From Candidatus Naiadarchaeum limnaeum (GTDB taxonomy: Archaea; Undinarchaeota; Undinarchaeia; Undinarchaeales; Naiadarchaeaceae), in assembly GCA_014189685.1 (NCBI GenBank), contig DVAB01000007.1:1-39358 (forward strand): DNA of 39,358 bases, in the 5' to 3' direction. Below the pieces are notes generated by a model. The model ran no database searches. It was not told where the DNA came from and worked only from the letters and a program-made list of their open reading frames with translations. Positions 10,591-39,082 of the stretch are shown here, one piece after another. Position numbers and translations under genes: made by a program. How positions within the stretch are numbered: the stretch's first letter is position 1; every line of letters begins with the position of its first letter.

Positions 10591-10911
10591 ATGGAAGAAG
10601 AAAACAAAAACGGATATGGAATAGCATTTGATGATCGCGGGACAATTTATATTGGATATGCTTCCCGTGTCCAGAAAGAAATAGACGAGGTTATGGTTGG
10701 CTGGGAAAATCAAATTGTTGTTTTGGAAATTGTTGCATGGGACAAGGAAAAGAACGAGCCCAGATATAGAAAGCGCACAATGGGCGCAATTGTCGCTCCG
10801 CTGATCCATTGGGAGAAATTTGAAAATTTAGAAAAGTTTTTGCAAAAATATAACGAGCACAAACCTGATTTTGTTCGAGTTCTGAAACAAGCGAGTTTGC
10901 AAGGGTTATGA
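10591..10911 (+). CDS. Hypothetical protein ending VLKQASLQGL*
   Basis: ATG 10591 preferred over 10510; the C-terminal codons are duplicated at 11398-11433. Confidence 0.65.
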   Translation: MEEENKNGYGIAFDDRGTIYIGYASRVQKEIDEVMVGWENQIVVLEIVAWDKEKNEPRYRKRTMGAIVAPLIHWEKFENLEKFLQKYNEHKPDFVRVLKQASLQGL

Positions 10912-11378
10912 TGAACATAGACGATGAAATTCTAGCTTTGGCCGAAGGGGAAATGCGTGAATTCTTTAAAGAGAGGCTTAGTCGGGTAACGAAAGAGCGA
11001 AAAATATCAGTTTTAAAAACATTAAGAAAATATGGTAGTAACCATTGGTGGAATTCGAAAGACACAGCTTTTATTGCGAGATGGCAATTATACGAGGACA
11101 TATCTATTGTACCTATTGATATTTTCCAGGAGGGTTTAGAAGAATTATTGGGTAAAAAAGTCATGTCGCATGAATTGATTGCAAGACAAAGACTACGAAA
11201 AGAAGCAGAAGCGGCCGTAGAACAATTTGATAATGGAGTTCTACCGCGAAGAAAAAATCAAAAAGAGGTAGATAAAATAATTAAAAAAGCTATAGCAGAA
11301 CTCAGAAGAATGAAACGGAAGAGGGGCGTTATCCCTTTTGAAATAGAAAAGAATTGGGGTGAAATTGAACGGCCATAA
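10908..11378 (+). CDS. Hypothetical charged helical protein (156 aa), cargo of a putative 3'-end insertion
   Basis: Starts at ATGATG overlapping the upstream TGA; bounded by copies of the upstream gene's tail. Confidence 0.65.
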   Translation: MMNIDDEILALAEGEMREFFKERLSRVTKERKISVLKTLRKYGSNHWWNSKDTAFIARWQLYEDISIVPIDIFQEGLEELLGKKVMSHELIARQRLRKEAEAAVEQFDNGVLPRRKNQKEVDKIIKKAIAELRRMKRKRGVIPFEIEKNWGEIERP

Positions 11379-11397
11379 AATAGCCCTTACTATCATT

Positions 11398-11433
11398 TGA
11401 CTTTTAAAACAAGCGAGCCTGCAAGGACTTTAA
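11398..11433 (+). pseudogene. Displaced tail copy of ORF 10591-10911 (LLKQASLQGL*)
   Basis: AAACAAGCGAGCCTGCAAGGACT vs AAACAAGCGAGTTTGCAAGGGTT (19/23); all four differences silent in frame. Confidence 0.75.
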
Positions 11434-11480
11434 AAAGCTTTATAAACTAAGAATTATTATCCCGAAATGGGAGGGAAATT

Positions 11481-11939
11481 ATGGCATTAGAATTACCAGT
11501 TGTAAACAATGTGGCAGTTTTAGTTGCAGCTATTGTGAGCATGGTTCTAGGTGCAGTTTGGTTCTCCCCACAGATGTTTGGAAAGCAGTGGATGAAGCTA
11601 GCTATGAAAAAAATGATGCCCCCAAAAATGGGCAAACAAGCCATAGCCGCAATGAAGGAAGAAATGCAAAAGGGTATGATGAAAGGATATGCTCTTGGAT
11701 TTATTACAACACTCATTGCAGCATATGTACTAGCACTCCTTGTCGCTTGGATTCCAGGAACCGCAGGAGTTGCCCTTGACGGAGCGATGGTAGGATTCTG
11801 GGTATGGCTTTTTGTTGCAGCAGTTGCATTCAGTTCGTACATCTGGGAAAAAGAACCACTACAACTTTACTTGCTAAAAATTGGCCATGTATTAGTTACT
11901 TTTGTTGTGATGGGGGCAATTTTAGCTGCTTGGGTCTAA
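11481..11939 (+). CDS. DUF1761-like integral membrane protein
   Basis: FSPQMFGKQWMKL near the N-terminus plus four hydrophobic segments. Confidence 0.75.
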   Translation: MALELPVVNNVAVLVAAIVSMVLGAVWFSPQMFGKQWMKLAMKKMMPPKMGKQAIAAMKEEMQKGMMKGYALGFITTLIAAYVLALLVAWIPGTAGVALDGAMVGFWVWLFVAAVAFSSYIWEKEPLQLYLLKIGHVLVTFVVMGAILAAWV

Positions 11940-11946
11940 TATAGAC

Positions 11947-12079
11947 AAAATCGATACGCGCAGTCATAGCAGGATAAAGAGTTTAATCTGTGTTATATGG
12001 CCCTCTCGCGGTTTTTCGAAAAACCCTGAGTAAAATGTGAGAGATAGAATTTGTATACTCGAGTATATATTTCAAAAAT
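11947..12079. repeat. Copy B of a ~130-nt intergenic repeat, possible structured ncRNA
   Basis: Aligns gaplessly with 12311-12443 (about 90/130 identical by hand); has GGTTTTTCGAAAAACC and TATACTCGAGTATA. Confidence 0.7.
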
Positions 12080-12091
12080 TCGCCTTACTAA

Positions 12092-12208
12092 CTAGATCGC
12101 TTTCATCCTAAGTTTTTTCTGCGCCCTCATTCTGCGGCGCATTCTTTTCTTTTCCCATTTCCAGCGCATCTTTCCTTTCTTTTTCCACTTCTTCTTGCGG
12201 GTTTTCAT
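12092..12208 (-). CDS. rpl41e: Large ribosomal subunit protein eL41, with 13-aa N-terminal extension
   Basis: MKTRKKKWKKKGK-MRWKWEKKRMRRRMRAQKKLRMKAI*; the last 25 aa align with eL41 (MRxKWxKKRMRR). TATA (TTATATAAAT, 12231-12240) about 28 nt upstream of ATG 12208. Absent from the ORF track because it is short. Confidence 0.85.
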   Translation of the reverse strand: MKTRKKKWKKKGKMRWKWEKKRMRRRMRAQKKLRMKAI

Positions 12209-12310
12209 TCCACAGAGAATATATTATTTAATTTATATAACTTCTGCTCAGCGCGAAACTTAGGCGCATAGCGCAAAAGAGAAATTCCAGCCTAATTTCC
12301 AAAATTCCGT

Positions 12311-12443
12311 AAAATCAATATGCGGCGCCATACCAAACTCCCGAGTTTTTGCCGTGTGGTATAGCCCCCTCGGCCTTTCCCTCAAAACACTGAATAAAAT
12401 GTGTGAGTTATATTTTCTATACTCTAAAATATACTTTCAAAAA
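12311..12443. repeat. Copy A of the ~130-nt intergenic repeat
   Basis: See copy B; has ATACCAAAC...GTGTGGTAT hairpin. Confidence 0.7.
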
Positions 12444-12968
12444 CTACTTTTTCAGCCTATAATAAACCTCTCTCCCTTTTCTCATCTGTTCCACAACATT
12501 ATATTTTGTCAATTCACTCAATCGCATTGCTGCATATTGCCTTGAAATTTTTAATTCTTTTGCAACCTCTGCCGCGCGCATTTTTCTTCTCTCAACTAAA
12601 TTTACAATTTTTTTATCTATATCCAACATTTCTAATTCTCTATCTACTTCCTGGCGCATTTTTTCAAGCTCTGTTTTTTTCTCTTCCAGATATTTTTTAA
12701 ACTCCGAAAAGTCGCTTTTTGTTGCCTGTTCCCCCATAATCTTATGATGATCCTCCCTCAATCCCTTAAATCCACTTAACAGTGTAGATTGAATCTCCTC
12801 AACATCGCGCTGAACATTTGTCAACTGCTTGCTAAAACTTATTACCGGATCTTCAGCAATTTTTTCAGCGCTTACATATTTTTTTCTTTCCTTCTTTTTC
12901 TCAATAGTTCTCTGCATAGCGTTTTTGCGCGCTTTCTTTTTCCCAACTAAAAAATCCCAAAATGCCAT
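12444..12968 (-). CDS. Coiled-coil protein with C-terminal winged-helix DNA-binding domain
   Basis: MRAAEVAKELKISRQYAAMRLSELTKYNVVEQMRKGREVYYRLKK. Confidence 0.8.
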   Translation of the reverse strand: MAFWDFLVGKKKARKNAMQRTIEKKKERKKYVSAEKIAEDPVISFSKQLTNVQRDVEEIQSTLLSGFKGLREDHHKIMGEQATKSDFSEFKKYLEEKKTELEKMRQEVDRELEMLDIDKKIVNLVERRKMRAAEVAKELKISRQYAAMRLSELTKYNVVEQMRKGREVYYRLKK

Positions 12969-12988
12969 AATCTGTCACAATATGTAAA

Positions 12989-13037
12989 TTGACATGTCAA
13001 CTATTTAAATGTTATGTCAATTGACAAGTTGACATGT
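12989..13037. promoter_or_regulatory. Palindromic operator cluster around a TATA box
   Basis: TTGACATGTCAA (12989-13000), TGTCAATTGACA (13015-13026), TTGACATGT (13029-13037); TATTTAAAT TATA between the first two. Confidence 0.75.
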
Positions 13038-13174
13038 AGTTTACAATATATTAATACATAGCGATTTTATGTCGTATACAGAATTTGACATGGATGCGCA
13101 TGTGCATTTTTCTAAAAATTTTGCAGTAAAAAATTTATTTGAAATGAGAAAATTTTGTCAAAAGTGAGGGATAG

Positions 13175-13255
13175 TAGTATAGTGAGGTGGTGTTATTTTG
13201 GGTCGCGTGAGTGAAATGTGAGAGTTCTTAGTCTATTATAATAGTATAAAATAAG
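13175..13255. repeat. Partial/degenerate third copy (C) of the intergenic repeat
   Basis: Shares GGTGTTATtTtGG and TGAGTgAAATGTGAGAG followed by AT-rich palindrome CTATTATAATAG. Confidence 0.4.
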
Positions 13256-13271
13256 GCTATGCATATCGATT

Positions 13272-14309
13272 TTAAATCGCAGCATATTGATTTTTAGTCA
13301 GAATATTTTCGTGTGTATGAAGGATTTTTCCAAAAAATTGTTCGCAAACCCAAATGTTGGTGTGCGCATGCGAGGTAAGTTTTGAAAATTTTAATGTTGA
13401 TGCAGATCGCGAGAGGGCTAAAAAGGGAATTATCTGATCTAAGGAATGTCGGTCAATTGTCGCATCGCTTTTGAAATCCTCAATTAATGATTGCGAGGCT
13501 TCCTTTCCAACAATCTCAGCCCTTAATGTTTGCTCCCCTATTTTTGAAGCGCCCAAAATCGCTCCGCTTTGAGTTGTGAGCCATAATGTAATTGCACTTC
13601 CAATATTCTCGGCCTCTAAATATTCTGTTTTTATGTTTGGTGAGACTTGTAACTTATTAAAAATCTCTCCGCGTGCAGAAATTTTTTGCCTTTCTGCAAC
13701 TTTTTTCTGTTCTAAGTGTTTGCTAGCAATTGATAGCCCAGAAACATTCTCAAGTTTCCCCTGTTCAATTAAGTTTAACCCTTTCAATTCATTTGCCGGA
13801 TAAAAAATCGCATTAACTCTTGCCCTACCTTTTGGATAAAACCCATGTCTTTCAACTTCTAAATCAATTTTATACCCGATTTTTTCCAAAATTTTGTAAA
13901 AAACATTCTGCACAAAATCGATAGGCGGCGCCCATTTTCCATAAGTTGCACCCCCTCTAATCTCAACTTTAACCTTTTTTTCTGCTTTTAGAGCTGCAAT
14001 TTGCAAAACCTGCAGAACTAATCCAATAGACCCTGCTGTTTCTATCTCAACTTTTACCTTGTCAGAAAAATTTTTCTCAGGAAAAAACTTAATTTCTGTT
14101 GAGCCCAATTCAGCGCCTATAATTTTTCCCCCGCACAATTCAGCCGCAGCCTTTACTCCCTGCAAATGCTGTACTTTTAATCCTGGCTGGGGGCGGTTTT
14201 TTCTGACATTATAGATATAAAGTGGCTTTCCAGTAAATACACTAAGCCCAACCGCAGTTCTAACTATCGAGCCTCCACCCTCCCCATAGCTCCCATCAAT
14301 TTCTAACAT
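13272..14309 (-). CDS. rtcA: RNA 3'-terminal phosphate cyclase
   Basis: LEIDGSYGEGGGSIVRTAVGLS; RPQPGLKVQHLQGVKAAAELCGG; RGGATYGKWAPPIDFVQ. Confidence 0.95.
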   Translation of the reverse strand: MLEIDGSYGEGGGSIVRTAVGLSVFTGKPLYIYNVRKNRPQPGLKVQHLQGVKAAAELCGGKIIGAELGSTEIKFFPEKNFSDKVKVEIETAGSIGLVLQVLQIAALKAEKKVKVEIRGGATYGKWAPPIDFVQNVFYKILEKIGYKIDLEVERHGFYPKGRARVNAIFYPANELKGLNLIEQGKLENVSGLSIASKHLEQKKVAERQKISARGEIFNKLQVSPNIKTEYLEAENIGSAITLWLTTQSGAILGASKIGEQTLRAEIVGKEASQSLIEDFKSDATIDRHSLDQIIPFLALSRSASTLKFSKLTSHAHTNIWVCEQFFGKILHTHENILTKNQYAAI

Positions 14310-14371
14310 GCTCTCACACCCCCTCTTTTATAATTAATATTATATATTTGCGCTTACTATCTATTTCAACC

Positions 14372-15877
14372 ATGAAACTTTCCTTTACTTCGGATCCAGT
14401 AGAAGAGCTAAAATCAGAATGCATAGCCCTAGGCGTTTTCCAAGAGGAGCCCCTTGCCCACGAAGCAAGAAAAATCGATACTGAACTAAACGGAGCGATT
14501 TCTTCCTTAACAAGAAACAAGGAATTCAAGGCAGAATTAAACGAAACCTACCTTTTTCCCTCAATGGGCAAAATTGGAGCAAAAAGAGTTCTCTTAATTG
14601 GATTAGGGAAAAAGCAGGACTTTTCATTTGATATAACAAGACAGGCCTCTGCAAGTGCAATTCAGGCTGTCAAAAGAGCAAATCTTAACTCATACACAAG
14701 CCTTGTTTTTGGCGCAGGCGTAAAAGGCCCAACAACAGATTTAGTTCAAGCAATGTCTGAGGGCGCAGTTCTAGGAGTTTATGCTTTTGACACCTTTAAA
14801 ACAGCTGAAAAGGAAAAGCCAAAGCAGGTTGAGTCCTTAGAAATTTTTTATGCTGACAAAAAAGAAATTCCAAAATTAAAAGAATCAGCCCAGGCTGGCC
14901 AGACCTTGGCCGAAATAGTGAATTATCACAGAGAGCTTGCAAATCTACCAGCAAATATTGCCACTCCTACTTACATTGCAAACGAATCTGAGAAGCTTGG
15001 TAAGAAATATGGCTTTAAAGTTACAGTCTATGATAAAATTGGAATCCAAAAACTCGGCCTTAACGGACTCTTAGCAGTTAATTCAGGCTCAGCGCAGGAG
15101 CCACGCTTTGTTGTTCTTGAATATAAGTCAAAATCAATAAGTGGCGCCCCAATTTGTTTAGTTGGAAAAACAATTACTTTTGACTCAGGAGGGCTTAATA
15201 TAAAAACTGCAGATTACATGCAGAACATGAAATTTGACAAGTGCGGAGGGATTTCTGTTTTGGGAGCAATTTGTGCAGCCGCTGCCCTAAAACTTTCTGC
15301 CCACTTAATCGGATTAATTCCTGCAACAGAAAATATGCCTTCTGGTTCTGCGTACAAAGTTGGGGACATAATAAAAACCTGGGGCGGAAAGACAATTGAA
15401 ATCGGAAATACAGACGCTGAAGGTCGCGTTGAGCTCTCAGATGTTCTTGCATATACAAAAGAGTTCAAACCAAAAGCCATAATAGATTTGGCAACTCTAA
15501 CAGGGGCCTGTGTTGTTGCCCTAGGGGTTCAGGCAGCAGGTTTAATGGGAAATGATGCCCGCTTTTCAACAAGAATAAAGGATGCTGCTGAAAGCTCTGG
15601 AGAACGAGTATGGGAACTCCCAATGTATGATGAGTACTCTGAGCAGATAAAAAGCGAAGTTGCAGATGTAAAAAACATTGGCGATGGAAATGCAGGCGCA
15701 ATCACAGCAGCAAAATTCCTTCAAAAATTCATCCCAGAAGGAGTTCCATGGGCTCATTTGGATATTGCAGGAGTTGCCTGGACTGATAAAGGAAAATACA
15801 GACCCTATGTTGGAAAGGGCGCAACTGGGTATGGCATTCGCCTCCTAATAGAACTGTTCAAAAACTGGCGTGGTTAA
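14372..15877 (+). CDS. pepA: Leucyl aminopeptidase (M17 family)
   Basis: GKTITFDSGGLNIKTADYMQNMKFDKCGG; NTDAEGRVELSD; ATLTGACVVALG. ATG 14372 preferred to TTG 14348. Confidence 0.95.
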   Translation: MKLSFTSDPVEELKSECIALGVFQEEPLAHEARKIDTELNGAISSLTRNKEFKAELNETYLFPSMGKIGAKRVLLIGLGKKQDFSFDITRQASASAIQAVKRANLNSYTSLVFGAGVKGPTTDLVQAMSEGAVLGVYAFDTFKTAEKEKPKQVESLEIFYADKKEIPKLKESAQAGQTLAEIVNYHRELANLPANIATPTYIANESEKLGKKYGFKVTVYDKIGIQKLGLNGLLAVNSGSAQEPRFVVLEYKSKSISGAPICLVGKTITFDSGGLNIKTADYMQNMKFDKCGGISVLGAICAAAALKLSAHLIGLIPATENMPSGSAYKVGDIIKTWGGKTIEIGNTDAEGRVELSDVLAYTKEFKPKAIIDLATLTGACVVALGVQAAGLMGNDARFSTRIKDAAESSGERVWELPMYDEYSEQIKSEVADVKNIGDGNAGAITAAKFLQKFIPEGVPWAHLDIAGVAWTDKGKYRPYVGKGATGYGIRLLIELFKNWRG

Positions 15878-15964
15878 AAAGTTTTAGTTTCATATTATAA
15901 TGGTGTTTAAAAGTGGTAAAAACAGTATTTTTCAAATACTTTATCGATATGAAACGAACTTTTT
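15876..15964. terminator. Nested inverted repeat between convergent genes, probable bidirectional terminator
   Basis: AAAAAGTT(TTA)GTTTCATAT ... ATATGAAAC(G)AACTTTTT enclosing AGTATTT-TTC-AAATACT. Confidence 0.5.
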
Positions 15965-15998
15965 CGCGCACCCTTAGTTTCGAGTGGAAATCATAACC

Positions 15999-16586
15999 CT
16001 ATTCAGCTAGGCCAAGCCATTTTCTTATCACATATATAACAGCTGCTTTGAATGGCATCCTACCTTTTCTTATCTCAATCTCTTTAATTACATCATCCAA
16101 AAGATTAGTCCCCTCAATAACTTTCTTTATCTCACCTTCCTCCTTAAGTGGTAATACTCGTGCCCAAAAATCAACAAGAATAAAAATATTTTCAAGCTTT
16201 TCAACAATATCTTTTTTAATTTCATAAGACTCGGAAAAAGCAGTTAAAATAGCATCTTTTTTCTCCATAACATCCTTTTCCAAGTACTTTTTTTCTTGAA
16301 TATTCGCTATTTTTTCTCTAAATTTTCCAAAATCAAGTCCTGCTTTGTGGAGCACCTCTGTAAACTGAAGTATTTTCGTAACTTTTTCGGTCTCTATTTT
16401 TCCATCCATGAGCAATCCTATCTGCTCTTTAATTTTACCTAGTATTGCTTCTGTTTGGTCAGAATCAAGCATCTCTCTTTTAACTAGATCTCTCACTTGC
16501 TCACGAAATTTTTGTAATGCTGTATTCACCTCATCAAAAGGGTTGGCAGCGGCCTTCTTCTTAGTTCTTGCTTTTTTTGCCACCAT
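15999..16586 (-). CDS. Hypothetical helical protein (195 aa)
   Basis: Long ORF, lysine-rich N-terminus, promoter-like AT-rich upstream. Confidence 0.7.
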   Translation of the reverse strand: MVAKKARTKKKAAANPFDEVNTALQKFREQVRDLVKREMLDSDQTEAILGKIKEQIGLLMDGKIETEKVTKILQFTEVLHKAGLDFGKFREKIANIQEKKYLEKDVMEKKDAILTAFSESYEIKKDIVEKLENIFILVDFWARVLPLKEEGEIKKVIEGTNLLDDVIKEIEIRKGRMPFKAAVIYVIRKWLGLAE

Positions 16587-16654: not shown

Positions 16655-17926
16655 ATGATTGACGTAAACCTCTTGCGCACAAATCCAGAAATTGCAAAAG
16701 ACTCCCAAAGGCGCCGCGGTATAGAAGTTTCCCTAGTTGACAAAGTCCTTGAAGCAGATAAAAAATGGCGCACTTTGAAAGGCGAATTAGATGAGCTACG
16801 CGCTGAAAGAAACAAACTTGGCGAGGAAATTGGAAAATTAAAAAAGAAAGGCGAAAATCCGGTTGATATTTTAAACCGCGTTTCAATTTTATCAGGAAAA
16901 ATAAAGAAACAAGAAGAGGAATTAGCAGAATTGGAGCAAAAAAGGGATAAACTTTTGCTTGAAATTCCCAATATTTTGCACGAAACTGTCCCTCAAGGAA
17001 AAGACGAGGGCGAAAATGTAGAGATTAAAAAAGTTGGAAAGCCAACAAAATTTCCATTTCAGCCAAAAGACCACATTGATTTAGGCTTAAACTTGGATTT
17101 ATTTGATGTGGAAAGAGCAGCAAAAACCTCTGGTGCAAGATTTTACTTTTTGAAAAACGAAGCTGTGCTTTTAGAGCTTGCTCTTGTCCAATATGCAATG
17201 GATTTTTTAGTAAAAAAACAAGGATTTACTCCTATAATTGTTCCTGATTTAGTAAAAGAGCGCTCTATGTATGGAGTTGGAATGCTCCCACACTCTCCAA
17301 ACGAGATTTACAAAATTGAAAATGAGGATCTGTATTTAGTTCTAACAAGTGAGCATGCAATTGCAGGAATGCACATGGACGAAACTTTCAAACCAGATGA
17401 TTTGCCAAAGAGATACGCAGGCTTTAGCACTTGTTTTAGAACAGAGGCAGGTGCTCACGGAAGGGATACAAAAGGAATTTTCCGAGTTCATCAGTTTGAC
17501 AAGGTTGAAATGTTTATTTTTTCCAAACCAGAGGACTCCTGGAAAGAGCATGAGAAACTTCTAAAAAATGCAGAGGAGCTTGTAAAAGGATTAGAACTTC
17601 CCTACCGAATTATGAATATCTGCACAGGTGATATTGGAGTTGTTGCTGCGAAAAAATATGACATAGATGCCTGGATGCCTGGGCAAAAAGCCTACCGCGA
17701 AATTATTTCGTGCTCAAATTGCACTGATTTCCAAGCGCGCAGGCTAAACATTAGAATCCTGCGCAATAATAAAACAGAAATCGCCCATACTTTAAACTCA
17801 ACTGCTTTAGCCATAGGGAGAACAATAGTTGCAATTTTGGAAAATTATCAAAACAAAGATGGTTCAATAACAGTTCCAAAGGTTTTGCAGAAATATACTG
17901 GATTTAAGAAAATTGGGCCTAAATAA
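16655..17926 (+). CDS. serS: Seryl-tRNA synthetase
   Basis: Class II motifs: FSTCFRTEAGAHGRDTKGIFRVHQFDKVEMF; EIISCSNCTDFQARRLNIR; TLNSTALAIGRTIVAILENYQ; N-terminal coiled coil. Confidence 0.96.
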   Translation: MIDVNLLRTNPEIAKDSQRRRGIEVSLVDKVLEADKKWRTLKGELDELRAERNKLGEEIGKLKKKGENPVDILNRVSILSGKIKKQEEELAELEQKRDKLLLEIPNILHETVPQGKDEGENVEIKKVGKPTKFPFQPKDHIDLGLNLDLFDVERAAKTSGARFYFLKNEAVLLELALVQYAMDFLVKKQGFTPIIVPDLVKERSMYGVGMLPHSPNEIYKIENEDLYLVLTSEHAIAGMHMDETFKPDDLPKRYAGFSTCFRTEAGAHGRDTKGIFRVHQFDKVEMFIFSKPEDSWKEHEKLLKNAEELVKGLELPYRIMNICTGDIGVVAAKKYDIDAWMPGQKAYREIISCSNCTDFQARRLNIRILRNNKTEIAHTLNSTALAIGRTIVAILENYQNKDGSITVPKVLQKYTGFKKIGPK

Positions 17927-17980
17927 TCAATACGCCCAGCTATCAATTTTTTATTTTTTAATTGTCTTTTCAATATTTTA

Positions 17981-18535
17981 TTATGGCCGTGTTATGTAAT
18001 TAAAAGTCACTACCACATTTCCTTTGCCAGTGTAAGTTGATTGCCCTGCATAAACTGTGACACTGCCAGTTGAAGGCTCGCTACCCTCATTCAAACTTAT
18101 TTTTATTGTTCCACCAGACCAAGCAGGCCTTGTTCCTGTAATTCTTGCTGTTATGTTTAAAAAGGGGTCTATTTCCTGAAATCCATAAAAACCCCTATCT
18201 TCAGCCTTCCATCTGGTGCCAATTTCTTTAGTTCCTGCAGCTTTGAAGGTCACTTGTCCACTTGCCTTCATCCATACATCGTGGAAATATGCGCCTCCTG
18301 TCATTCCCACTGGCGAAAATTTTCCGCTGCCTCTGATATCAATTGTGTTTCCACTGCCATCGCTTAGCCCAGTTGCAGAGAAAGAAAACGAATGTCGCTC
18401 CCTATCAAACCACTTTCCTGTAATATTGTCTTTTGCAATGAAAACAGTTGCCAAAATAGCTATTATAATTATCACTATCAATGCCTTGTATCTAATTTCC
18501 TTTCTACCCAGCATGGCCAAAGTTTTAAGTTTCAT
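17981..18535 (-). CDS. Hypothetical membrane-anchored beta-rich extracellular protein, cargo of a putative 3'-end insertion
   Basis: Single N-terminal TM (ALIVIIIIAILATVFIA) followed by G/S/T-rich beta-type sequence. Confidence 0.65.
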   Translation of the reverse strand: MKLKTLAMLGRKEIRYKALIVIIIIAILATVFIAKDNITGKWFDRERHSFSFSATGLSDGSGNTIDIRGSGKFSPVGMTGGAYFHDVWMKASGQVTFKAAGTKEIGTRWKAEDRGFYGFQEIDPFLNITARITGTRPAWSGGTIKISLNEGSEPSTGSVTVYAGQSTYTGKGNVVVTFNYITRP

Positions 18536-18588
18536 GTGCCAATTATGAATTTGCTTACTGTACTCTTATATTTTTTGGTAAGAAAAAA

Positions 18589-18636
18589 GTTTTGCAGAAG
18601 TATACGAGGGTTAAGAAGATTGAAGCCAAGAAATAA
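18589..18636 (+). pseudogene. Displaced serS tail copy (VLQKYTRVKKIEAKK*)
   Basis: In-frame match to the serS C-terminus VLQKYTGFKKIGPK* (17882-17926). Confidence 0.85.
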
Positions 18637-18684: not shown

Positions 18685-19767
18685 ATGAAATCCAAAGAAC
18701 CCCCTCTTTTAATGACGCCTGGTCCGACTTATGTTCCAGAAAGAATTCTTAAAGCTCTTTCTCGCCCTTTAATCCATCACCGCGAAAAAGAATTTTTGGA
18801 AATGGTGCAAAACTGCACTGAGCGCTTAAAACAAGTTTTCAAAACAAAAAATGATTTGTTTATTCTCACTTCTTCTGGAACAGGTGCAATGGAAGCTGCA
18901 ATTTCCAACACAATAAGTCCAGGGGACAAAGTCCTCTCTGTTGTAAATGGTGTTTTTTCAGAAAGGCTTTCAAATATAGCAACTTCATTTGGTGCAACTG
19001 TAAGAACTCTTAGTGTGCCACATGGCCAAGCTGTTGAACCAGCAAAATTTAAAGAAGTTTTCCAAAGCTCTAATTATAAATTGGTGACTATTGTACACAA
19101 CGAAACATATAGCGCAGTTAAAAATCCTGTTGCAGAGATAGGAAAAATCGTAAATGAAACTGATTCACTTCTTTTAACAGATGCAATCTCGAGCTTGGGG
19201 GGCGATGATATACGAACAGATGAGTGGGGAGTTGATTTTTGTCTTGCAGGGAGTCAGAAGTGCTTAATGCTTCCCCCGGGCCTAGCTTTTATAACAGTTT
19301 CTGAAAAAGCATGGGGTGCAATTGATAAAAAACAGGGCGGCAGATTTTATTTTAACTTAAAAAAATACAAAGAAAAGGCACCTGATAATCCATGGACAAC
19401 TGCCATAAATCTTGTTTTTGGGCTTGATGAAAGCCTGAACATGATTTTTGAGGAAGGCTTAGAAAATCGAATTAAAAGACATACTCAGGTTGCAGAGCAT
19501 TGCAGAAAAGAGATTAAGAAACTCGGATTTCAGCTATTTGCAACTCCAGAATCTGTTGCTTCCCAAACTTTGACGTCTGTTTTGGCCAGTGGGCGTGACG
19601 TTGAAAAAATGCGCTCAATTGTAAAACAAAAATATAATATTCAAATGGCCGGTGGGCAAAAAGATTTGAAGGGAAAAATTTTTAGAATCGGGCACATGGG
19701 CGCAATTGGAAAAAAGGAAGTTGATCTTACAATTGATGCTATTTCTAAATCTCTTAAAGAACTATGA
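18685..19767 (+). CDS. Class V aminotransferase (alanine-glyoxylate/serine-pyruvate aminotransferase-like)
   Basis: MTPGPTYVPERIL; LTSSGTGAMEAAI; DAISSLGGDDIRTDEWGVDFCLAGSQKCLMLPPGLAF (PLP lysine). Confidence 0.92.
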   Translation: MKSKEPPLLMTPGPTYVPERILKALSRPLIHHREKEFLEMVQNCTERLKQVFKTKNDLFILTSSGTGAMEAAISNTISPGDKVLSVVNGVFSERLSNIATSFGATVRTLSVPHGQAVEPAKFKEVFQSSNYKLVTIVHNETYSAVKNPVAEIGKIVNETDSLLLTDAISSLGGDDIRTDEWGVDFCLAGSQKCLMLPPGLAFITVSEKAWGAIDKKQGGRFYFNLKKYKEKAPDNPWTTAINLVFGLDESLNMIFEEGLENRIKRHTQVAEHCRKEIKKLGFQLFATPESVASQTLTSVLASGRDVEKMRSIVKQKYNIQMAGGQKDLKGKIFRIGHMGAIGKKEVDLTIDAISKSLKEL

Positions 19768-19842
19768 TGTCAAAAATGCCTCAAAATAAATCAATTTTTG
19801 ACATATGCGAAATTCAAAAGTACTTTGAGGTGAATTTCGCAT
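19768..19842 (+). promoter_or_regulatory. Structured leader: two hairpins with complementary loops masking SD and start codon
   Basis: TGTCAAAAA/TTTTTGACA; ATGCGAAATTC/GAATTTCGCAT; loop CCTCAAA complements TTTGAGG, which contains the SD. Confidence 0.7.
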
Positions 19843-20818
19843 GATTTTAATTGTATTCCCCTTTTCAGAGGATATTGGAATTAAAGTCGTAAAGGCAAGT
19901 TTAGAAAGACAGGCGGCCTTTTTTGATAAGTTAACTATAGGAAAAGTCAAAAGTGAGAAAGCTCGCGCAAACAAAATAACTTCCAAATGCAAAAAACTTT
20001 TACAAAGCGGGAAAAGAGTCGATACGATAATTCTTTTGCGCTCAAAACTTTCCAACTCAGAAAAAATTAGCGTTTTTTATGTTCCGCGCGAGCTAAATTC
20101 TAATCTAACCCATTTTATAGAGGACCAAAAACTTTCGCGCGCCAGATTTAAGCCGGAATTTGCTGAGCTTAATAAAACCGAATTTCCTTTCTCACTAAAA
20201 AACCTAGGAACTTTTTCTCAATTTGTTCTTTTAGTTGAATTTTCTTTTAATAAAAACAATCCACTCGATTATAATTTGCGCAAATATAGGAGAAAAATGT
20301 CTTCGCCATCTCTTTTAACTGCCGTAAGATACTTAAAATATCTTTTTAAAGATTTGGAGAAACATTCAAAAAGGAAAGCAGCCGCGTTCTCTAGAAAAAG
20401 AACAAAAGAAATTTCTGAAACATCTAGTGCGCTTGAGGAATTAGAAAAACAATTGATTGCTGAAAAGAAAAAAATCGATCTTGAACAGGACAAAACAATA
20501 AAACCACACCTTGAAAATCAATGGCGGAGAAGTGGCGAGGATAATTTGTTTGCATTGTTTAGGCAAATTGTCTTACCTAAATTAAAGGAAAAATCAAACT
20601 ATTCCATAACCTTGGAAGAAACTCAAGATGCTGCCGGTCGCAATATATCAATTAAAATTCCTGGCCGGGCAGTTGCAGATGTTTTTCTGAGCGGAACAGG
20701 AGCTTTAGAAATATTAAAGCGCAGTCCTGTTGAAAAAATTTCACTAATAACTTTCTATGAAAAACTATGTAAAGGCGATCTTTCAAATAAATGGGGGGAG
20801 AAGTTTGGCATAAAATGA
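19841..20818 (+). CDS. Hypothetical protein (325 aa), charged coiled-coil middle
   Basis: ATG with SD GAGGTG 8 nt upstream; no recognised family. Confidence 0.75.
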   Translation: MILIVFPFSEDIGIKVVKASLERQAAFFDKLTIGKVKSEKARANKITSKCKKLLQSGKRVDTIILLRSKLSNSEKISVFYVPRELNSNLTHFIEDQKLSRARFKPEFAELNKTEFPFSLKNLGTFSQFVLLVEFSFNKNNPLDYNLRKYRRKMSSPSLLTAVRYLKYLFKDLEKHSKRKAAAFSRKRTKEISETSSALEELEKQLIAEKKKIDLEQDKTIKPHLENQWRRSGEDNLFALFRQIVLPKLKEKSNYSITLEETQDAAGRNISIKIPGRAVADVFLSGTGALEILKRSPVEKISLITFYEKLCKGDLSNKWGEKFGIK

Positions 20819-21735
20819 GCGCAAAAATTTTGCTTGCAGACCCAATTGATAAAAAAGCGTTTGATGCAATTAAAGAATTGGCTCAAGTCAAAGATGCCTC
20901 TAAGCTTTCTCGTGCCGCTCTGCTGAAAAATATTTCATCATATGAAATTTTAATTGTTCGCTCTAGGACAAAGGTAGATGAACAATTATTAAAAAAAGCA
21001 AAAAAATTAAAAGCAGTTGTTCGCGCAGGCGTTGGACTGGATAACATTGATGTTGAATATTGCAACGAGCACAATCTAAAAGTCGTAAACACACCAGAAG
21101 CCCCAACCATTTCTGTTGCAGAACTTACAATTGGATTAATGCTATCTCTTTTAAGAAAAATTCCGTATGCAGATGCCACAACTAAAAACAAGAAGTGGCT
21201 TAAGTCAGAGCTTACAGGAAAAGAACTTTTTGGAAAAACTCTTGGAATAATAGGATTTGGCAGGATTGGGCCGCAAGTTGCGCAAAGGGCAAAAGTATTT
21301 AGGATGGAAATCTTAATTTTTGACAAAAGAGCAAATACAGAACAAGTTAGAGATTTTGGGCAGCTTGTTCCTTTGCAGGAGTTGCTGAGGCGCTCTGATA
21401 TAATTACGTTGCATATTCCGCTCACTGATGAAACTGAAAACATGATTTCTGATGCGCAATTTAAACTGATGAAAAACGGTGCCTATTTGATTAATACTGC
21501 ACGCGGTCCAATTGTAAATGAACAGGCTCTGATAAAAGCACTGAAATCCGGGAAGCTTGCTGGTGCGGCCCTTGATGTCTATTGGGGCGAAACTCCCTTT
21601 GGGTCAAAAATTATGCAGTTTAAAGACAAACTTATTTTGATGCCCCACATAGGCTCCCAGACTTATGAGGCACAGGCAAGAGTTGGCGATCTTTTGATTG
21701 AAAAAGTAAGGCAGTTAATAGCAGAATTAAAATAG
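20815..21735 (+). CDS. serA: D-3-phosphoglycerate dehydrogenase/2-hydroxyacid dehydrogenase, short form
   Basis: RAGVGLDNIDVEYCNEHNLKVVNTPEAPTISVAELTIGLML; LGIIGFGRIGPQVAQRAK; LINTARGPIVNEQALIKAL; LMPHIGSQT; no ACT domain. Confidence 0.9.
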   Translation: MSAKILLADPIDKKAFDAIKELAQVKDASKLSRAALLKNISSYEILIVRSRTKVDEQLLKKAKKLKAVVRAGVGLDNIDVEYCNEHNLKVVNTPEAPTISVAELTIGLMLSLLRKIPYADATTKNKKWLKSELTGKELFGKTLGIIGFGRIGPQVAQRAKVFRMEILIFDKRANTEQVRDFGQLVPLQELLRRSDIITLHIPLTDETENMISDAQFKLMKNGAYLINTARGPIVNEQALIKALKSGKLAGAALDVYWGETPFGSKIMQFKDKLILMPHIGSQTYEAQARVGDLLIEKVRQLIAELK

Positions 21736-21757
21736 TTCTCTTAACAAAGTTCTATTT

Positions 21758-22456
21758 ATGGCAGAAAGCGAAGAAGACCCAGTCAAGATATTTAGTAAGT
21801 ATGTTGAAGGATACGACCGACAGCAGAGATTAGAGAGGTATAAGAGCCTTGTTTCTATTTTAGGAGATTTAGAGGAAATTAAAAAAAAGCGAAAGAAAAA
21901 CTACCTTCTTATTGCGAAAACTGGCATTGTGCCAAAAATGATTGATGCAAATGATCGCGGTGATGTGGAAGAATTTACCCATCTTTTTGCGCAATTATTA
22001 GCAATAAAACATCAAGGAGAACGTGCTCTCAAAAAAAAGCTTGATGAGCAAAAAGCCAAGTTTTATTATCTCGAAGAACTAATACTTGATTACGATCTAA
22101 TCGAAAACGAAAAAATTTTTAAAGAGTTGGCAATTTTGAAAGATTTTTTAGATGATACAGAAATTGCGCGTTTTGATAGGCATTATGAGCAAATTAGAGC
22201 TGATATTGAAGATGTAATTAATGAACTAACGCCCGACCTTGATAAAAAATGGGCCGATTTAAAGAGTATCCTTCCGGAAGATATTCAAAAGGCAATGGAT
22301 TTTTTTGATGGGGCAAAAGCAAAGAATATACGAACGCTCAAGCTTTTTGAAAGGACAAAAATAGCCTTGGAGCGGGGCGTGTCCTCGGAAAAGATTATCA
22401 GTGCCCTAAAGAAAGAGTTAAGGGAAATTTTGAAGCGGTCTACAAATAAAAAATAA
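21758..22456 (+). CDS. Hypothetical helical protein (232 aa)
   Basis: ORF overlapping the topA start by 1 nt. Confidence 0.7.
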   Translation: MAESEEDPVKIFSKYVEGYDRQQRLERYKSLVSILGDLEEIKKKRKKNYLLIAKTGIVPKMIDANDRGDVEEFTHLFAQLLAIKHQGERALKKKLDEQKAKFYYLEELILDYDLIENEKIFKELAILKDFLDDTEIARFDRHYEQIRADIEDVINELTPDLDKKWADLKSILPEDIQKAMDFFDGAKAKNIRTLKLFERTKIALERGVSSEKIISALKKELREILKRSTNKK

Positions 22457-33635: not shown

Positions 33636-34568
33636 TTATTTTTGCCCCATAGTTGTTACAAACGCCCCATCTTTTTGCACAACCATAGTATGTTCGAATT
33701 GTGCAACTAAACCATTTCCTTTTTCTTTTAAAACAGGATACTGGTAAAGCGCTCCGAATTGGTTTAGCTCTCTAAATGCGAGCGCAAGCTTTAATTTCCC
33801 AATTTTTTTCTCAATCCAGCGCTTTGCAAATGGCAATTTTTCAAAATCTTTTTCAGCCATCATTAAAATTCTGCGCGCTTCCATCAACCTTACTGGAATT
33901 TTTGCTATAAATTCATAAATTTGAACTTCTTTATCATCATAAACCAATCCTTCTCCATTCGTACTAAAAGGCTCAATTGCAATTGACATTCCCTCTTCTA
34001 AAATTCCTCCTGATTTTTTCACATTTGGAATTATCGGCTCATCATGCTGAACATATTGCCCAACTCCGTGTCCTGTTAAATTTTCAATCGGCTTTACTCC
34101 AAAGCTTTTCATTGTATTTTCGATTGTTTCTCCAATTTTTTCAATTTTAACTCCGGGCTTAACCAACTCAATTGCTTTTTCTAAGCTTTTTTGGGCAGCT
34201 TCAATTAATTTTACATGCAAATCATTTTTCGGATTTGTTGTAATTGTAATTGCAGAATCTGCAATAAATCCGTCGACTTGCACCCCCAAATCAAACTTGA
34301 CTAAATCATCTTCTCCTAGGACAATTTTGCACTCATAATCAGGAGTATAGTGCGCCGCAATATTGTTAATTGAAATATTAGCAGGAAAAGCAAGCCTTGC
34401 ACCTTCCTCTTTAATTAAATTTTCAACTTTTTCTGCAATATCAAGAACTTTTGCTCCCGGCTTCGCTAACTTTTCAACTAAGTTTTTTGCTTTGATATTG
34501 ACCTTTCCAGCTTTTTTGTATTTTTCAAAAATTTCAGAGTCCATTAACATATGCGGCCTTGCTCCCAA
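33636..34568 (-). CDS. map: Methionine aminopeptidase, type 2
   Basis: PANISINNIAAHYTPD; LVKFDLGVQVDGFIADSAITI; NLTGHGVGQYVQHDEPIIPN; SIAIEPFSTNGEG; C-terminal QFEHTMVV. Confidence 0.96.
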   Translation of the reverse strand: MGARPHMLMDSEIFEKYKKAGKVNIKAKNLVEKLAKPGAKVLDIAEKVENLIKEEGARLAFPANISINNIAAHYTPDYECKIVLGEDDLVKFDLGVQVDGFIADSAITITTNPKNDLHVKLIEAAQKSLEKAIELVKPGVKIEKIGETIENTMKSFGVKPIENLTGHGVGQYVQHDEPIIPNVKKSGGILEEGMSIAIEPFSTNGEGLVYDDKEVQIYEFIAKIPVRLMEARRILMMAEKDFEKLPFAKRWIEKKIGKLKLALAFRELNQFGALYQYPVLKEKGNGLVAQFEHTMVVQKDGAFVTTMGQK

Positions 34569-35158
34569 ACCTCTATAACTCCATGTCTGAGTACTTTAAT
34601 TTTTCCATTTACCTGGACAACAGTGCTTGGACCCTTGTATTTTGTTTCTCCTTTACCAATCACTAAATCAACTTTTTTCTTAATCGACTTCGGGACTTCT
34701 TTCGCACTAATTGGATCTTTTCTTCCAGAGATATTTGCGCTTGTGCTTGTGATTGCGTGGCCAAATTTTCTTAAAAGTTCCTGTACAAATTCATTATTAG
34801 GGACCCTAATTCCCACATAAGCTGAATTTGTGATCCATCTCGGGACAGTTTTCTTCTTTTTTAGAACTAAAGTAATCGGGCCTGGTAGAAAATTATCAAT
34901 TAAAATTCGTGCTAAATCATTTACTTGCGCATATTTTTCAATATTTTCCTTCAAGCATGCGATTGAAAGTGCTTTTGTCTGCTCACGGCCTTTAAGCGCA
35001 TAAATCTTTTCTACTGCTTTTTTACTTTTTATATCAGCCCCAAGACCATAAACAGTTTCGGTTGGGTAAACAATAACTCCACTTTTTTTTAAAATTTGAA
35101 CAGCTTTCGCTACAATATCTTGTTTCTTACTTTTTGTTTTCGATCTTTTTGGTTTCAT
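34544..35158 (-). CDS. Sua5/YciO/YrdC family threonylcarbamoyl-AMP synthase
   Basis: GVIVYPTETVYGLGADIKSKKAVEKIYALKGR; PGPITLVLKKK; ITSTSANISGRKDP; GPSTVVQV. Confidence 0.93.
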   Translation of the reverse strand: MKPKRSKTKSKKQDIVAKAVQILKKSGVIVYPTETVYGLGADIKSKKAVEKIYALKGREQTKALSIACLKENIEKYAQVNDLARILIDNFLPGPITLVLKKKKTVPRWITNSAYVGIRVPNNEFVQELLRKFGHAITSTSANISGRKDPISAKEVPKSIKKKVDLVIGKGETKYKGPSTVVQVNGKIKVLRHGVIEVWEQGRIC

Positions 35159-35774
35159 TAATTAGTTTAGTAAAGTTTCTTCCTTTAAACATTACCGTGT
35201 GCATCCCAATTTTTTCTGCAGCCATATCTTCTGGCTTGTCTCCAATCATAACTGCTTCTCTTGCCCTGCATTTTGCTTTTTTCAGAGCCGTTCTGAAAAT
35301 TTTCTTGCTTGGTTTTTCAGATCCAACTTCTTCACTTATAACCACAATATCAAAAAATTTGCTCACATTCAATCTAATTAGTTTATCCCATTGTTTAGTC
35401 GCGCGGCCGTTAGTGATAATTCCAAGCTTATATCCACTTGCTTTTAATTTTTCTAGCGTTTTTTTAACCCCAGGAAACGGCTTTAGAAGTCTAAATTTTG
35501 TATTATGATATTCTACAATTCCTGCAGCAACTATTCTCGATCTTTCTTCTTTTTTTACTTTGTAGGCTTGAACTAATTTATCAAAATGCCCGGGATAATT
35601 TGATCCATATTTCTTAACAATCTGCAGTAATTTTTTAAACGCTGGTCCGAATTTTGTATTTAATCCAGCTTTAATCATCGCCTTAACCGCATTTTTGCGT
35701 GCATTTGTTGAAAGGCCGCGGCTATCAAAAAGAGTATTGTCAATATCAAAGAAAACCCATTTTATATTTTTCAT
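35127..35774 (-). CDS. HAD-superfamily hydrolase
   Basis: FFDIDNTLFDSR; GIITNGRATKQWDKL; GSEKPSKKIF; MIGDKPEDMAAEKIG. Confidence 0.93.
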   Translation of the reverse strand: MKNIKWVFFDIDNTLFDSRGLSTNARKNAVKAMIKAGLNTKFGPAFKKLLQIVKKYGSNYPGHFDKLVQAYKVKKEERSRIVAAGIVEYHNTKFRLLKPFPGVKKTLEKLKASGYKLGIITNGRATKQWDKLIRLNVSKFFDIVVISEEVGSEKPSKKIFRTALKKAKCRAREAVMIGDKPEDMAAEKIGMHTVMFKGRNFTKLINETKKIENKK

Positions 35775-35780
35775 CTTAGT

Positions 35781-36473
35781 TTAGCAGACTAACCCATTCT
35801 CCCCTGCTTCTATTAAATCCCCATAACCAGATCTTGCTGATCTATCCTGATAAGCAATTGCTCCTGTTGTATAGTGAACTGTAGTAAAATAATCTCCTGA
35901 ATTATAGCTCTCCTCCGCTTTATTCAGATATTCTATCGAGATTGGCTTTTGATTTTTCTTTAAAAACGATTTTGCATATTGTAAATCGCAGAAAGCATAG
36001 TTCTGCATTTTTGTATTTACAAGTTCACATTTATCAATTGCTTCAATGTTGTTCAGAACTTGCAATTTTAATCCAGAAATTCTCCCATAGAAATCATTAC
36101 CAGCATTTATTTCTCCAATTGTCACAACGCCACTTAACGCTTCGAATTCGTTTAAAGGAGAAAGGCGCATTAATTCCTTAACTTCAAACAAGTTGAAACT
36201 TCTCGCAATTTTCTTTTCCAAAGATTTTTGTTCCTCTAGCAAGGATTCACTGCACATGATCTCGGCCCCACGATTATATGAGCGCTGCGTTAGCAAGCAG
36301 GAACTTTTCTGTGCCTGCAAATTTTTGCAATTTTCTTGAAAAGAACTTATTTGATTTACAGCGCGCTCTTTACTAGAATTCAACTCATTATAATACCACA
36401 TTCCTGTAAGAAAAATAAAGACTACCATAAGCGCAACTATTAAACCATCCAGGTAAATTATTTCTCTTTCCAT
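35781..36473 (-). CDS. Hypothetical single-TM protein (230 aa)
   Basis: N-terminal TM LIVALMVVFIFLTGMWYY followed by a soluble helical, Cys-containing domain. Confidence 0.75.
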   Translation of the reverse strand: MEREIIYLDGLIVALMVVFIFLTGMWYYNELNSSKERAVNQISSFQENCKNLQAQKSSCLLTQRSYNRGAEIMCSESLLEEQKSLEKKIARSFNLFEVKELMRLSPLNEFEALSGVVTIGEINAGNDFYGRISGLKLQVLNNIEAIDKCELVNTKMQNYAFCDLQYAKSFLKKNQKPISIEYLNKAEESYNSGDYFTTVHYTTGAIAYQDRSARSGYGDLIEAGENGLVC

Positions 36474-36482
36474 ACTAGCTAA

Positions 36483-36512
36483 TTAGAAGTGCGTTAATTT
36501 AAATTGTTCCTT
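36483..36512 (-). pseudogene. Displaced polB tail copy (KEQFKLTHF*)
   Basis: Minus strand AAGGAACAATTTAAATTAACGCACTTCTAA vs polB AAGAAACAATTTAAGCTTACACATTTCTAA; H, T, L, K codon changes silent. Confidence 0.85.
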
Positions 36513-36513
36513 T

Positions 36514-36611
36514 CAGCCGAAGCCGTTTAAAAGCTGTATAATCGGCTGGCGCTTATGGGACTACATTAGTGATTGCTCGCTTCTTTGAAATTGTGCGCTC
36601 GCAATCACTAA
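36514..36611. other. Hairpin-rich noncoding insert between polB and its displaced tail
   Basis: CAGCCGA/TCGGCTG (36514-36548) and TTAGTGATTGC/GCAATCACTAA (36566-36611, 11 bp). Confidence 0.6.
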
Positions 36612-36643
36612 ATAGGCCTACGGTTATTTATTCCCACGGTACC

Positions 36644-39082
36644 TTAGAAATGTGTAAGCTTAAATTGTTTCTTTCCCAGCAAAGCCCCTTCCTCATACCC
36701 AAGCGCTTCCATAACTCTTGAAACAGCAGGGATTATCTCATGTTCAATATAGTAATCCTTATCATATTTCTTAAAATCAACCTCATCAACCGGCCGCGCT
36801 CTTTCACTTATTTTACCTTCCCCTTTTATGATTATATATCCAATCGAACTGCCTGTTTTAATGTCCTCGCCTTTTTTCTTCAGTATTTTTGCAACAGCGA
36901 TGTGCGGCGCAGTAACTTCATATTTTTCAAGCGGCCTTGTCAATGCTGTGTAAACAACTAAATCCTCCTTTGTAACCCTGCCTTCTTTTAGCCTGTTAAT
37001 AACTTCTCTCACAATTTCAAATGCCTTTTCAGACGAGCCTTTGTCAAGCAGCGCCTCCAAAACTTTTTTCTGAGTGTCTTTGGCAAGCTGGCTCCAGTCT
37101 CTCCTGACAAATTCCAGTCCTTTCACAGTTGTCTTTCCGTTTTTGTCAGCTAGCGCATATCTTTTCTTTGAAACAAAAATCCCTCTCTTGTAAATTCCCT
37201 CAAGCTCGAGCTCCATAGCTCTAGGAAGCTCTGAATTTATTTTTTTCAAGAAGTTTTTAATACGATCCTCTATTGGTCCTTCTTTGCTTATTGCAAAAAG
37301 TGAATCTGTATCCCCGTAAATAACTTCCAATTTCTCGTTCTCAGCAACATCCATAATTTTCTTAATATACATCCTTCCCAGTGCAGTTACAGAACTCGCA
37401 GACGACCTTGAATACCATCTTGCATTTCTATACGCCAAATAACCATAAGCAGAATTTGCAAGAATCTTAAGCGCATACTGTTCATTATCAAGTTCTTTAT
37501 ACTCTTCTGAATTTTTGTCAAGCTTTTTCATATGTTCCTTAACTTTAACTCTCCTGTCAATTATTTTTTCAAGGACATCCGGAATCAAGCCCCTTCTTTT
37601 TTTGCAAAACCAGTTTTTAGTCTCAGGAACAGGCTCTGCAATTCCTTTACAGCAATCGCAGTTTATAGTGCTTGGATCGATGTTATGCGAAATAATTATT
37701 GTCGGATACAGAGATCTGAAATCAAGAAGCGCGATATTTTCATACATCCCTTTTTTTGGCTCTTTTACATAAGCGCCTTCAATTGCCCCAAGCTCATACC
37801 TTGCGTCCCTCTCCTCTTCATCTGGCCGGTTTGGCGCAATTTCATTTCTTTCGTGTGCATTCCATATCAAATAGTTCTCCACTAATTGTCCATAGGAAGT
37901 TCGTATTGCATCAAAAACAGGAATTTTTACAAGCTTTGCAATTTCATAGACTTTTGGCAGAAAAACGTTTGCAAGCTTCCACGTTAAAACAGAATCATGA
38001 AGCGCATATTCAAACAGCTGGTCTAATTTTTCATCCCCCTCATCCCAGTATTTCCACATGACTTTCCAGTCAATTTCTTTTTTCCCTTCTCCAAGAAAAG
38101 TTTGCGCCACATTTTCCAGTGTCCTGCTGCTAATTCCTCCAAGCGCACCTCTTAATATATATGAGGCATAGTGGAAAAGGTCAATATGCACTCTTCCGAT
38201 TGTCTGGACCGCTGTAAACAATCCTTTTTTCTTGAACTTAAGTGGATCTTCAGTTCTCCCCAGAACAACCTCATATTTTACGCGCTCCATCCTATTTCTA
38301 ATATATTCTAAATCAAACTGGTCAGAGTTATAGCCAACTAAAATATCAACATCTCTTTCGTTTACAATCTCTGCAAATTTTTTTATAATTTCAGCTTCGC
38401 TTGAAACTTTTTCTATCTTATTGCTGGGTTCTTTTGAGGTTTTTGTTGAAATAAGCTTCTCTATTTTTCCATCTTTCAGGCTAAGCATCGTTATGTAATC
38501 AATTTTCTGGTCAGGCGCGCCTTTTGGGTTGTAAACTTCAATATCAAAACTCATAACATTTAAATCAGAAAGTGTTTTGTCCGTATTTTTTGGCCTTTCC
38601 TCTAAATCAATTAAAATTTCTGCTTTGTAGTTTTTCTTTATTTCAGCATCTGAAACAATTTTTCCCTTTGCGGAAATCATTACCATCGGCATCAGCCCGT
38701 TGTCAAACAAATAGCGGCGCGCAAACAAAATATCTGCTTCATAAACTCCTTCCACCCCCCTGACATGTTTGACAGCTTCCCTTGCAGAAGGAACTTCAGT
38801 TGGAGACTGCATAACAACTTTTAAAATTTTTACTTCCTTCCCGTTGAGAAGTTTTTTTTCAATCTTAACTTTTTCAATTACAAACTCTTCTTTTTTAAGT
38901 TCTTTCAGCCGCTCAGCGGTTTTTTCAGGCTCCTTTGAATAAGCATAAAAGTAGGGCTCAAATCCTCTGTCAAAAGCCACAATACTCTGTCCCTTATCAG
39001 TTCTACCGAATATTCTTATTACTGGTTTTTTTTCTTCCAGAATATAATCTATATCGAGCAGACTAAACGCATATTCTCCCAT
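36644..39082 (-). CDS. polB: Family B DNA polymerase
   Basis: Exo motif SFDIEVY; DFRSLYPTIIISHNIDPST; KILANSAYGYLAY; YGDTDSLF; no intein. Confidence 0.97.
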   Translation of the reverse strand: MGEYAFSLLDIDYILEEKKPVIRIFGRTDKGQSIVAFDRGFEPYFYAYSKEPEKTAERLKELKKEEFVIEKVKIEKKLLNGKEVKILKVVMQSPTEVPSAREAVKHVRGVEGVYEADILFARRYLFDNGLMPMVMISAKGKIVSDAEIKKNYKAEILIDLEERPKNTDKTLSDLNVMSFDIEVYNPKGAPDQKIDYITMLSLKDGKIEKLISTKTSKEPSNKIEKVSSEAEIIKKFAEIVNERDVDILVGYNSDQFDLEYIRNRMERVKYEVVLGRTEDPLKFKKKGLFTAVQTIGRVHIDLFHYASYILRGALGGISSRTLENVAQTFLGEGKKEIDWKVMWKYWDEGDEKLDQLFEYALHDSVLTWKLANVFLPKVYEIAKLVKIPVFDAIRTSYGQLVENYLIWNAHERNEIAPNRPDEEERDARYELGAIEGAYVKEPKKGMYENIALLDFRSLYPTIIISHNIDPSTINCDCCKGIAEPVPETKNWFCKKRRGLIPDVLEKIIDRRVKVKEHMKKLDKNSEEYKELDNEQYALKILANSAYGYLAYRNARWYSRSSASSVTALGRMYIKKIMDVAENEKLEVIYGDTDSLFAISKEGPIEDRIKNFLKKINSELPRAMELELEGIYKRGIFVSKKRYALADKNGKTTVKGLEFVRRDWSQLAKDTQKKVLEALLDKGSSEKAFEIVREVINRLKEGRVTKEDLVVYTALTRPLEKYEVTAPHIAVAKILKKKGEDIKTGSSIGYIIIKGEGKISERARPVDEVDFKKYDKDYYIEHEIIPAVSRVMEALGYEEGALLGKKQFKLTHF

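Follow-up and report, generated by a model that had tools for sequence, protein, structure and literature searches.

Several unrelated genes of the archaeon Candidatus Naiadarchaeum limnaeum end in a tail that is not their original one. The present C-terminus came with an inserted stretch of DNA, and a second, diverged copy of the last codons, lying behind the insert and beside the next gene, is the ancestral host tail. Three such genes lie in the window, the whole 39,358-bp stretch analysed here, which is contig 37 of the assembly (other contigs are cited as C plus number): an open reading frame (ORF) of 106 codons, the seryl-tRNA synthetase gene serS and the family B DNA polymerase gene polB. 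With a probability of roughly 0.6, this pattern reflects tail-restoring integration at gene 3' ends by a recombinase that was supplied in trans or has been lost. The assembly is a single metagenome-assembled genome (MAG) of 983,883 bp in 52 contigs, the largest being 97,397 bp, with 98% completeness and 1041 called genes, and it is the sole genome of its family in the comparison.

Displaced gene tails in the window and in the genome

The features of the three window cases are as follows.

10591..10911, plus strand: 106-aa ORF (unknown); present tail VLKQASLQGL-stop at 10879-10911
10912..11400, plus strand: insert 1, with a DUF7736 gene at 10908-11378 whose start codon overlaps the stop of the ORF
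11401..11433, plus strand: displaced tail of the 106-aa ORF, LLKQASLQGL-stop, followed by the promoter-like region of a DUF1761 gene (11481-11939)
16655..17926, plus strand: serS; present tail KVLQKYTGFKKIGPK-stop at 17879-17926
17927..18585: insert 2, with a convergent 184-aa gene on the minus strand (17981-18535); absent from the syntenic serS-aminotransferase junction of the related genome G001
18586..18636, plus strand: displaced serS tail, KVLQKYTRVKKIEAKK-stop, upstream of an aminotransferase gene (18685-19767)
36644..39082, minus strand: polB; present tail KKQFKLTHF-stop at 36644-36673
36513..36643, minus strand: insert 3, one copy of a structured repeat of ~150 bp present in ~17 copies genome-wide
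36483..36512, minus strand: displaced polB tail, KEQFKLTHF-stop
35781..36473, minus strand: next gene after polB, 230 aa, membrane-anchored; its ortholog begins 1 nt past the polB stop in relatives

The initial annotation had described these three duplications and had placed each second copy directly against the promoter of the next gene. The duplications lie where stated: the second copies are in frame, on the same strand and retain the stop codon, and the distance to the next start is 9 bp for polB and 48 bp for serS, with a TATA-like box following the displaced tail of the 106-aa ORF. The differences between the copies are mainly synonymous, as the codons of the present polB tail (AAG AAA CAA TTT AAG CTT ACA CAT TTC TAA) and the displaced one (AAG GAA CAA TTT AAA TTA ACG CAC TTC TAA) illustrate, and the other two pairs differ in the same manner. 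The polB tail is similar to a PCNA-binding motif, so that a functional tail would be expected to persist.

The occurrence of such tails was surveyed by a stop-anchored scan, in which the last residues of each gene were compared with all stop-terminated reading frames of the genome at a BLOSUM score of at least 34. The scan gave 46 matches, 36 of them on other contigs or on the opposite strand. Nine lay on the same strand within 5 kb downstream, and none was found beyond 5 kb. With a tandem paralogue on C15 and an artefact on C39 set aside, seven remained, against ~0.09 expected from the match rate in the rest of the genome (Poisson test, P about 1e-11), so the genome-wide excess that the initial annotation proposed to look for does exist. 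The seven comprise guaA, polB, the 106-aa ORF, argS, trmI, a TrmG10-like methylase gene and a weaker hypothetical gene. A looser scan adds serS, which has a one-codon offset, and a case on C29. At least seven protein cases are solid (the 106-aa ORF, serS, polB, guaA, argS, trmI and the TrmG10-like methylase); the last two entries below are tentative. The cases outside the window are as follows.

guaA, C35: 20 codons, displaced tail at +4490
argS, C7: displaced tail at +1613
trmI, C7: displaced tail at +80
TrmG10-like methylase, C23: displaced tail at +2546
hypothetical gene, C8: weaker, with mostly nonsynonymous differences
case on C29: displaced tail at +54, weaker

Because a comparison at the amino-acid level favours synonymous differences, a frame-blind nucleotide scan of each gene tail against its downstream 5 kb was run as a confirmation free of that bias. 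It yielded the same set of cases and recovered all three in the window (scores 19, 23 and 20). The mirror test, in which gene heads were compared with upstream DNA, returned mainly tandem paralogues and nothing comparable except the displaced guaA tail itself; the phenomenon is thus specific to 3' ends. In other archaea, the stop-anchored scan detected no displaced tail among 1522 genes: 803 came from 59 loci and 719 from the complete gene set of G003, an Undinarchaeales genome in which one pair of identical paralogues was the sole match.

Ends of tRNA genes are duplicated as well. At tRNA-Cys, 26 nt of the 3' end recur, the copies differing by a compensatory change in the T-stem; at tRNA-Phe the exact 3' end and at tRNA-Thr the exact 5' end are repeated.

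Several candidates were discarded. The tail repeat of C39:9379-10008 is part of an RNase Z gene in a different frame, and that of C35:5496-6917 extends beyond the stop as part of a 230-bp tandem duplication involving precursor genes resembling those of ribosomally synthesized and post-translationally modified peptides (RiPPs). C15, C40, C45 and C7:15810 look like tandem paralogues, and an apparent stray serS fragment, G001:C97, is a contig end that contains the serS empty site. At the C39 locus, the 3' end of the methyltransferase gene at 9379-10008 matches the catalytic-motif region of RNase Z (C39:6963-7883) exactly over ~50 bp, and a 97-bp exact inverted repeat lies near this gene pair.

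Divergence and polarity of the two tails

Over eight tail pairs, 41 synonymous and 19 nonsynonymous differences were counted (pS 0.70, pN 0.09). The synonymous share is 68%, or ~77% (36/47) without the weakest case, compared with 21% expected for random change and about 35-41% for duplication of an identical tail followed by drift. The excess over the latter is significant (P = 2e-5 to 8e-7), and it follows that the two tails diverged as coding sequence, under selection, before they were joined. The prophage e14 of E. coli, used as positive control, gives 10 synonymous and 2 nonsynonymous differences between icd and the displaced icdC. The longest blocks common to both tails measure 7-23 bp; at polB, argS and trmI they are located towards the 5' end of the repeat.

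Which tail is the older one was deduced from the uninterrupted sites of relatives. The closest genomes compared come from the same order, and their PolB and SerS proteins are 54-62% identical to those here; an alignment scan with polB retrieved only relatives of ~56% identity or less, the named ones being Undinarchaeales MAGs. Empty sites, which had been suggested as a check, were found for serS, polB and trmI, the genes covered by this test; for the 106-aa ORF and guaA, the relatives either lack the ortholog or have it cut off. In G001, serS ends with VLQKWTGFKEIKLKKK-stop, overlaps the start of the aminotransferase gene and is followed by the conserved gene order. In G003-G005 and the named MAGs, the polB stop is separated by 1 nt from the ortholog of 35781-36473, and HAD-like and further genes come next in the order of the window. 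The spacing between trmI and pyrB is about 42 bp in these same genomes, and here the displaced trmI stop lies ~45 bp from pyrB. The displaced tail therefore occupies the place of the ancestral gene end. Tail similarity was compared as well: against six relatives, the displaced trmI tail matches 19-22 of 27 nt and the present one 15-18 of 27, which is a clear difference; that at polB is small (20/30 displaced, 18/30 present), and serS gives a mixed result. The empty sites and the trmI tails together bear out the earlier proposal that the displaced copy is ancestral.

Many junctions between genes are longer here than their compact counterparts in G003. G003 has 309 neighbouring gene pairs that are also conserved in this genome; about 110 of their gaps are enlarged here by at least 60 bp and only 5 are contracted, and an example of enlargement in the window (18685-22456) is a 325-aa gene at 19841-20818 between the aminotransferase gene and serA. 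Very few of the expanded junctions bear a scar, and the suggestion of an acquisition route that always leaves one therefore fails.

Inserts, the dispersed repeat and recombination machinery

The inserts measure about 30, 53, 58, 131, 489, 659, 1583, 2519 and 4430 bp. Their cargo had been called minimal, but this is not always so: at guaA the insert (C35:5076-9505) holds what is probably a RiPP-like cluster, judging from its gene content: two precursor-like ORFs (MEYVxPExxPPVPMCMGDxxGRLCML.., common core PPVPMCMGD..GRLCML), a radical-SAM/SPASM protein with a PqqD domain, a GNAT protein, and an ABC ATPase and permease. The argS insert encodes two proteins without a Pfam match, and that of the TrmG10-like gene a beta-helix-like surface protein (677 aa) and a membrane protein. 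The 184-aa protein of the serS insert apparently carries a membrane helix at the N-terminus; its Ig-like match is weak. The 106-aa ORF, with its replaced tail, and the DUF7736 gene of insert 1 (assignment E=4e-10) are translationally coupled through an ATGA overlap. The DUF7736 protein gave the only match to the phage collection, a weak one over 65 aa to a hypothetical protein of a Paenibacillus phage; a search of IMG/VR for DUF7736 relatives found none, and the comparison of the insert proteins with PHROGs gave nothing convincing.

The polB insert represents one of about 17 copies of a dispersed element of ~110-150 bp, among them those at 36513-36643 in the window, C44:14815, C25:4314, C41:249, C21:7439, C50:14136, C24:17868, C17:15483 and C8:2345. 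Its main hairpin is 100% paired, and 7 of 11 pairs are changed on both sides in a compensatory manner. About half of the copies lie beside tRNA genes or inside them, in introns. Host repeats flank the copies at polB, tRNA-Cys and tRNA-Thr, the last of these carrying an exact 17-bp repeat on its two sides; the remaining copies are intergenic and lack such repeats. An Rfam search with the element gave nothing convincing, the phage collection contained no match to the polB insert, and the repeat pattern was found neither in relatives nor in any other of 101 archaeal genomes.

Recombination genes were sought by profile searches on the 98%-complete assembly. No tyrosine recombinase was detected in this genome or in five members of the same order, while the control genomes all gave matches, and in this genome serine recombinases, Y1 transposases, Cas1 and LAGLIDADG_3 were likewise without a match. 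The combination noted from the window, an att-like logic at unrelated targets and no integrase, thus extends to the whole genome as far as the integrase is concerned; a trans-acting recombinase elsewhere in the genome, which had been envisaged, was not found. With no tyrosine recombinase of any kind found, a XerA-type dimer-resolution enzyme is not detectable here or in five related Undinarchaeota genomes.

Possible routes to a displaced tail

In the favoured scenario, a DNA element would recombine with the final 24-60 bp of a gene, giving the order host gene with the tail of the element, rest of the element, and original host tail stranded beside the next gene. We infer that site-specific recombination made the join, probably at crossover points within the tail, through a tyrosine-recombinase-type integrase provided in trans by a virus or plasmid or encoded by the element itself before it decayed. 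What is left would be integrase-less islands or scars of about 30 bp to 4.4 kb, comparable to cis-mobilizable elements (CIMEs). The anatomy is that of gene 3'-end targeting with att-like repeats that restore the target end, and the relatives supply the empty sites. Several observations weigh against integration of this kind. Neither the genome nor the insert genes scanned individually (those other than the ABC genes at guaA and the 677-aa gene at TrmG10) yielded a recombinase, and no helper was found among IMG/VR viral contigs, which contained neither the repeat pattern nor degenerate polB or guaA tails. A boundary motif common to all inserts, which the initial annotation had suggested looking for, was not found, only the polB, tRNA-Cys and tRNA-Thr sites sharing the structured repeat. 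Inserts of 30-130 bp are far below the size of the integrase elements in the papers cited below, and, given the diversity of the targets, a large number of different integrases would be required.

In the main rival reading, DNA from a related lineage, circular or linear, carries a homologous gene tail and recombines through short homology within it, either by a single crossover or with one end joined through homology and the other through micro-homology, so that donor tail, donor DNA and host tail come to lie in a row. Such a capture, possible although we judge it unlikely, accounts for the missing recombinase, the variable insert size and the diversity of targets and cargo, and it agrees with the short shared blocks and with the many expanded junctions. 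It should, however, also leave long displaced gene fragments, whereas only tails of 8-20 codons ending at the stop are seen, and it leaves unexplained the use of tRNA ends and of circles of 50-150 bp. A more tentative idea is that the lineage has been visited by non-autonomous mini-elements, some of them just a ~150-bp structured DNA or RNA element plus a replacement gene tail, moved by an unseen helper in trans or by tail homology alone.

Insertion of a transposon-like element with a long target-site duplication and subsequent drift of the displaced copy is improbable. The polB insert is indeed a whole copy of a dispersed repeat, and the copy at tRNA-Thr has its exact flanking repeat; but repeats that are identical at insertion, as expected of transposons and miniature inverted-repeat transposable elements, are exact only at tRNA-Thr and tRNA-Phe, and most copies have none. 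Duplication of an identical target with later drift is rejected because of the synonymous excess (P < 1e-6 without the weakest case), and at trmI it is the displaced copy, not the functional one, that resembles relatives more, contrary to what drift would predict. Endonuclease-driven homing, in which a donor allele with tail and element serves as template for repairing a double-strand break close to the end of the gene, would produce this anatomy too; in Glomus it is described for atp6, atp9, cox2 and nad3, where the native tails are again the ones closer to relatives (PMC3630166). We regard it as very improbable here: no homing endonuclease was recognised among the insert genes scanned, and neither the 131-bp polB insert nor the three of about 30-60 bp could encode one. 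That strain variants of gene ends were placed in tandem during assembly is hardly credible. The genome is a single metagenome assembly; yet the tails differ far more than strains would, coding genes or a multicopy element occupy the inserts, the gene order across them matches relatives, several contigs are affected, and G003, also a MAG, shows no case.

Relation to known integration systems

In this reduced DPANN genome, the C-termini of core genes for a DNA polymerase, tRNA synthetases, GMP synthase and tRNA methylases have repeatedly been swapped for foreign versions, and each event is a polarised record in which old tail, new tail and cargo stand side by side. The stop-anchored scan is simple, gave no matches in the comparison genomes and detects integration scars that are invisible to searches based on integrases. 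Should trans-mobilised mini-elements be responsible, small archaeal genomes could gain single genes at gene ends by a route for which neither the host genome nor the element has to encode a recombinase.

Among the classic targets of integrases are tRNA genes and guaA (PMC5704250, PMC9376610), and integrated mobile genetic elements (iMGEs) in the 3' ends of protein genes of Thaumarchaeota have att-like repeats mostly under 26 bp (PMC6563490). Like the present cases, these iMGEs and e14 at icd insert into the distal portion of a gene, supply a new stop and tail and have short att-like repeats, and e14 shares the synonymous pattern of divergence between its two tails. They differ in carrying an integrase (or a casposase) and in their size of 2.6 kb or larger; the Naiadarchaeum inserts span about 30 bp to 4.4 kb, with neither the recombinase gene typical of integrative elements nor the Cas1-type casposase of casposons detected. 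CIMEs and the integrase-less ssrA islands of Dehalococcoides are likewise bounded by target-gene repeats and devoid of integration genes (PMC5704250, PMC3146451). The likeness to CIMEs, which keep attL and attR and have lost integration and transfer genes, is one of anatomy only: they usually occupy one locus, in tandem with or derived from identifiable integrative and conjugative or integrative and mobilizable elements, whereas in Naiadarchaeum about ten single, unrelated loci are affected and a search of the genome revealed no resident helper. In fungal mitochondria, mobile ORFs fuse a foreign C-terminus to the gene and leave the native one, closer to relatives, behind the insert (PMC3630166), but those inserts encode a homing endonuclease. 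Finally, GIsul2-type islands (PMC9376610) use the guaA 3' end as well; the Naiadarchaeum target is an archaeal guaA, for a 319-aa subunit, with a 4.4-kb, apparently RiPP-like cargo and no integrase found. Single tail-replacement events are known, and it is their occurrence as a set, in a genome without a detected recombinase, that is unusual.

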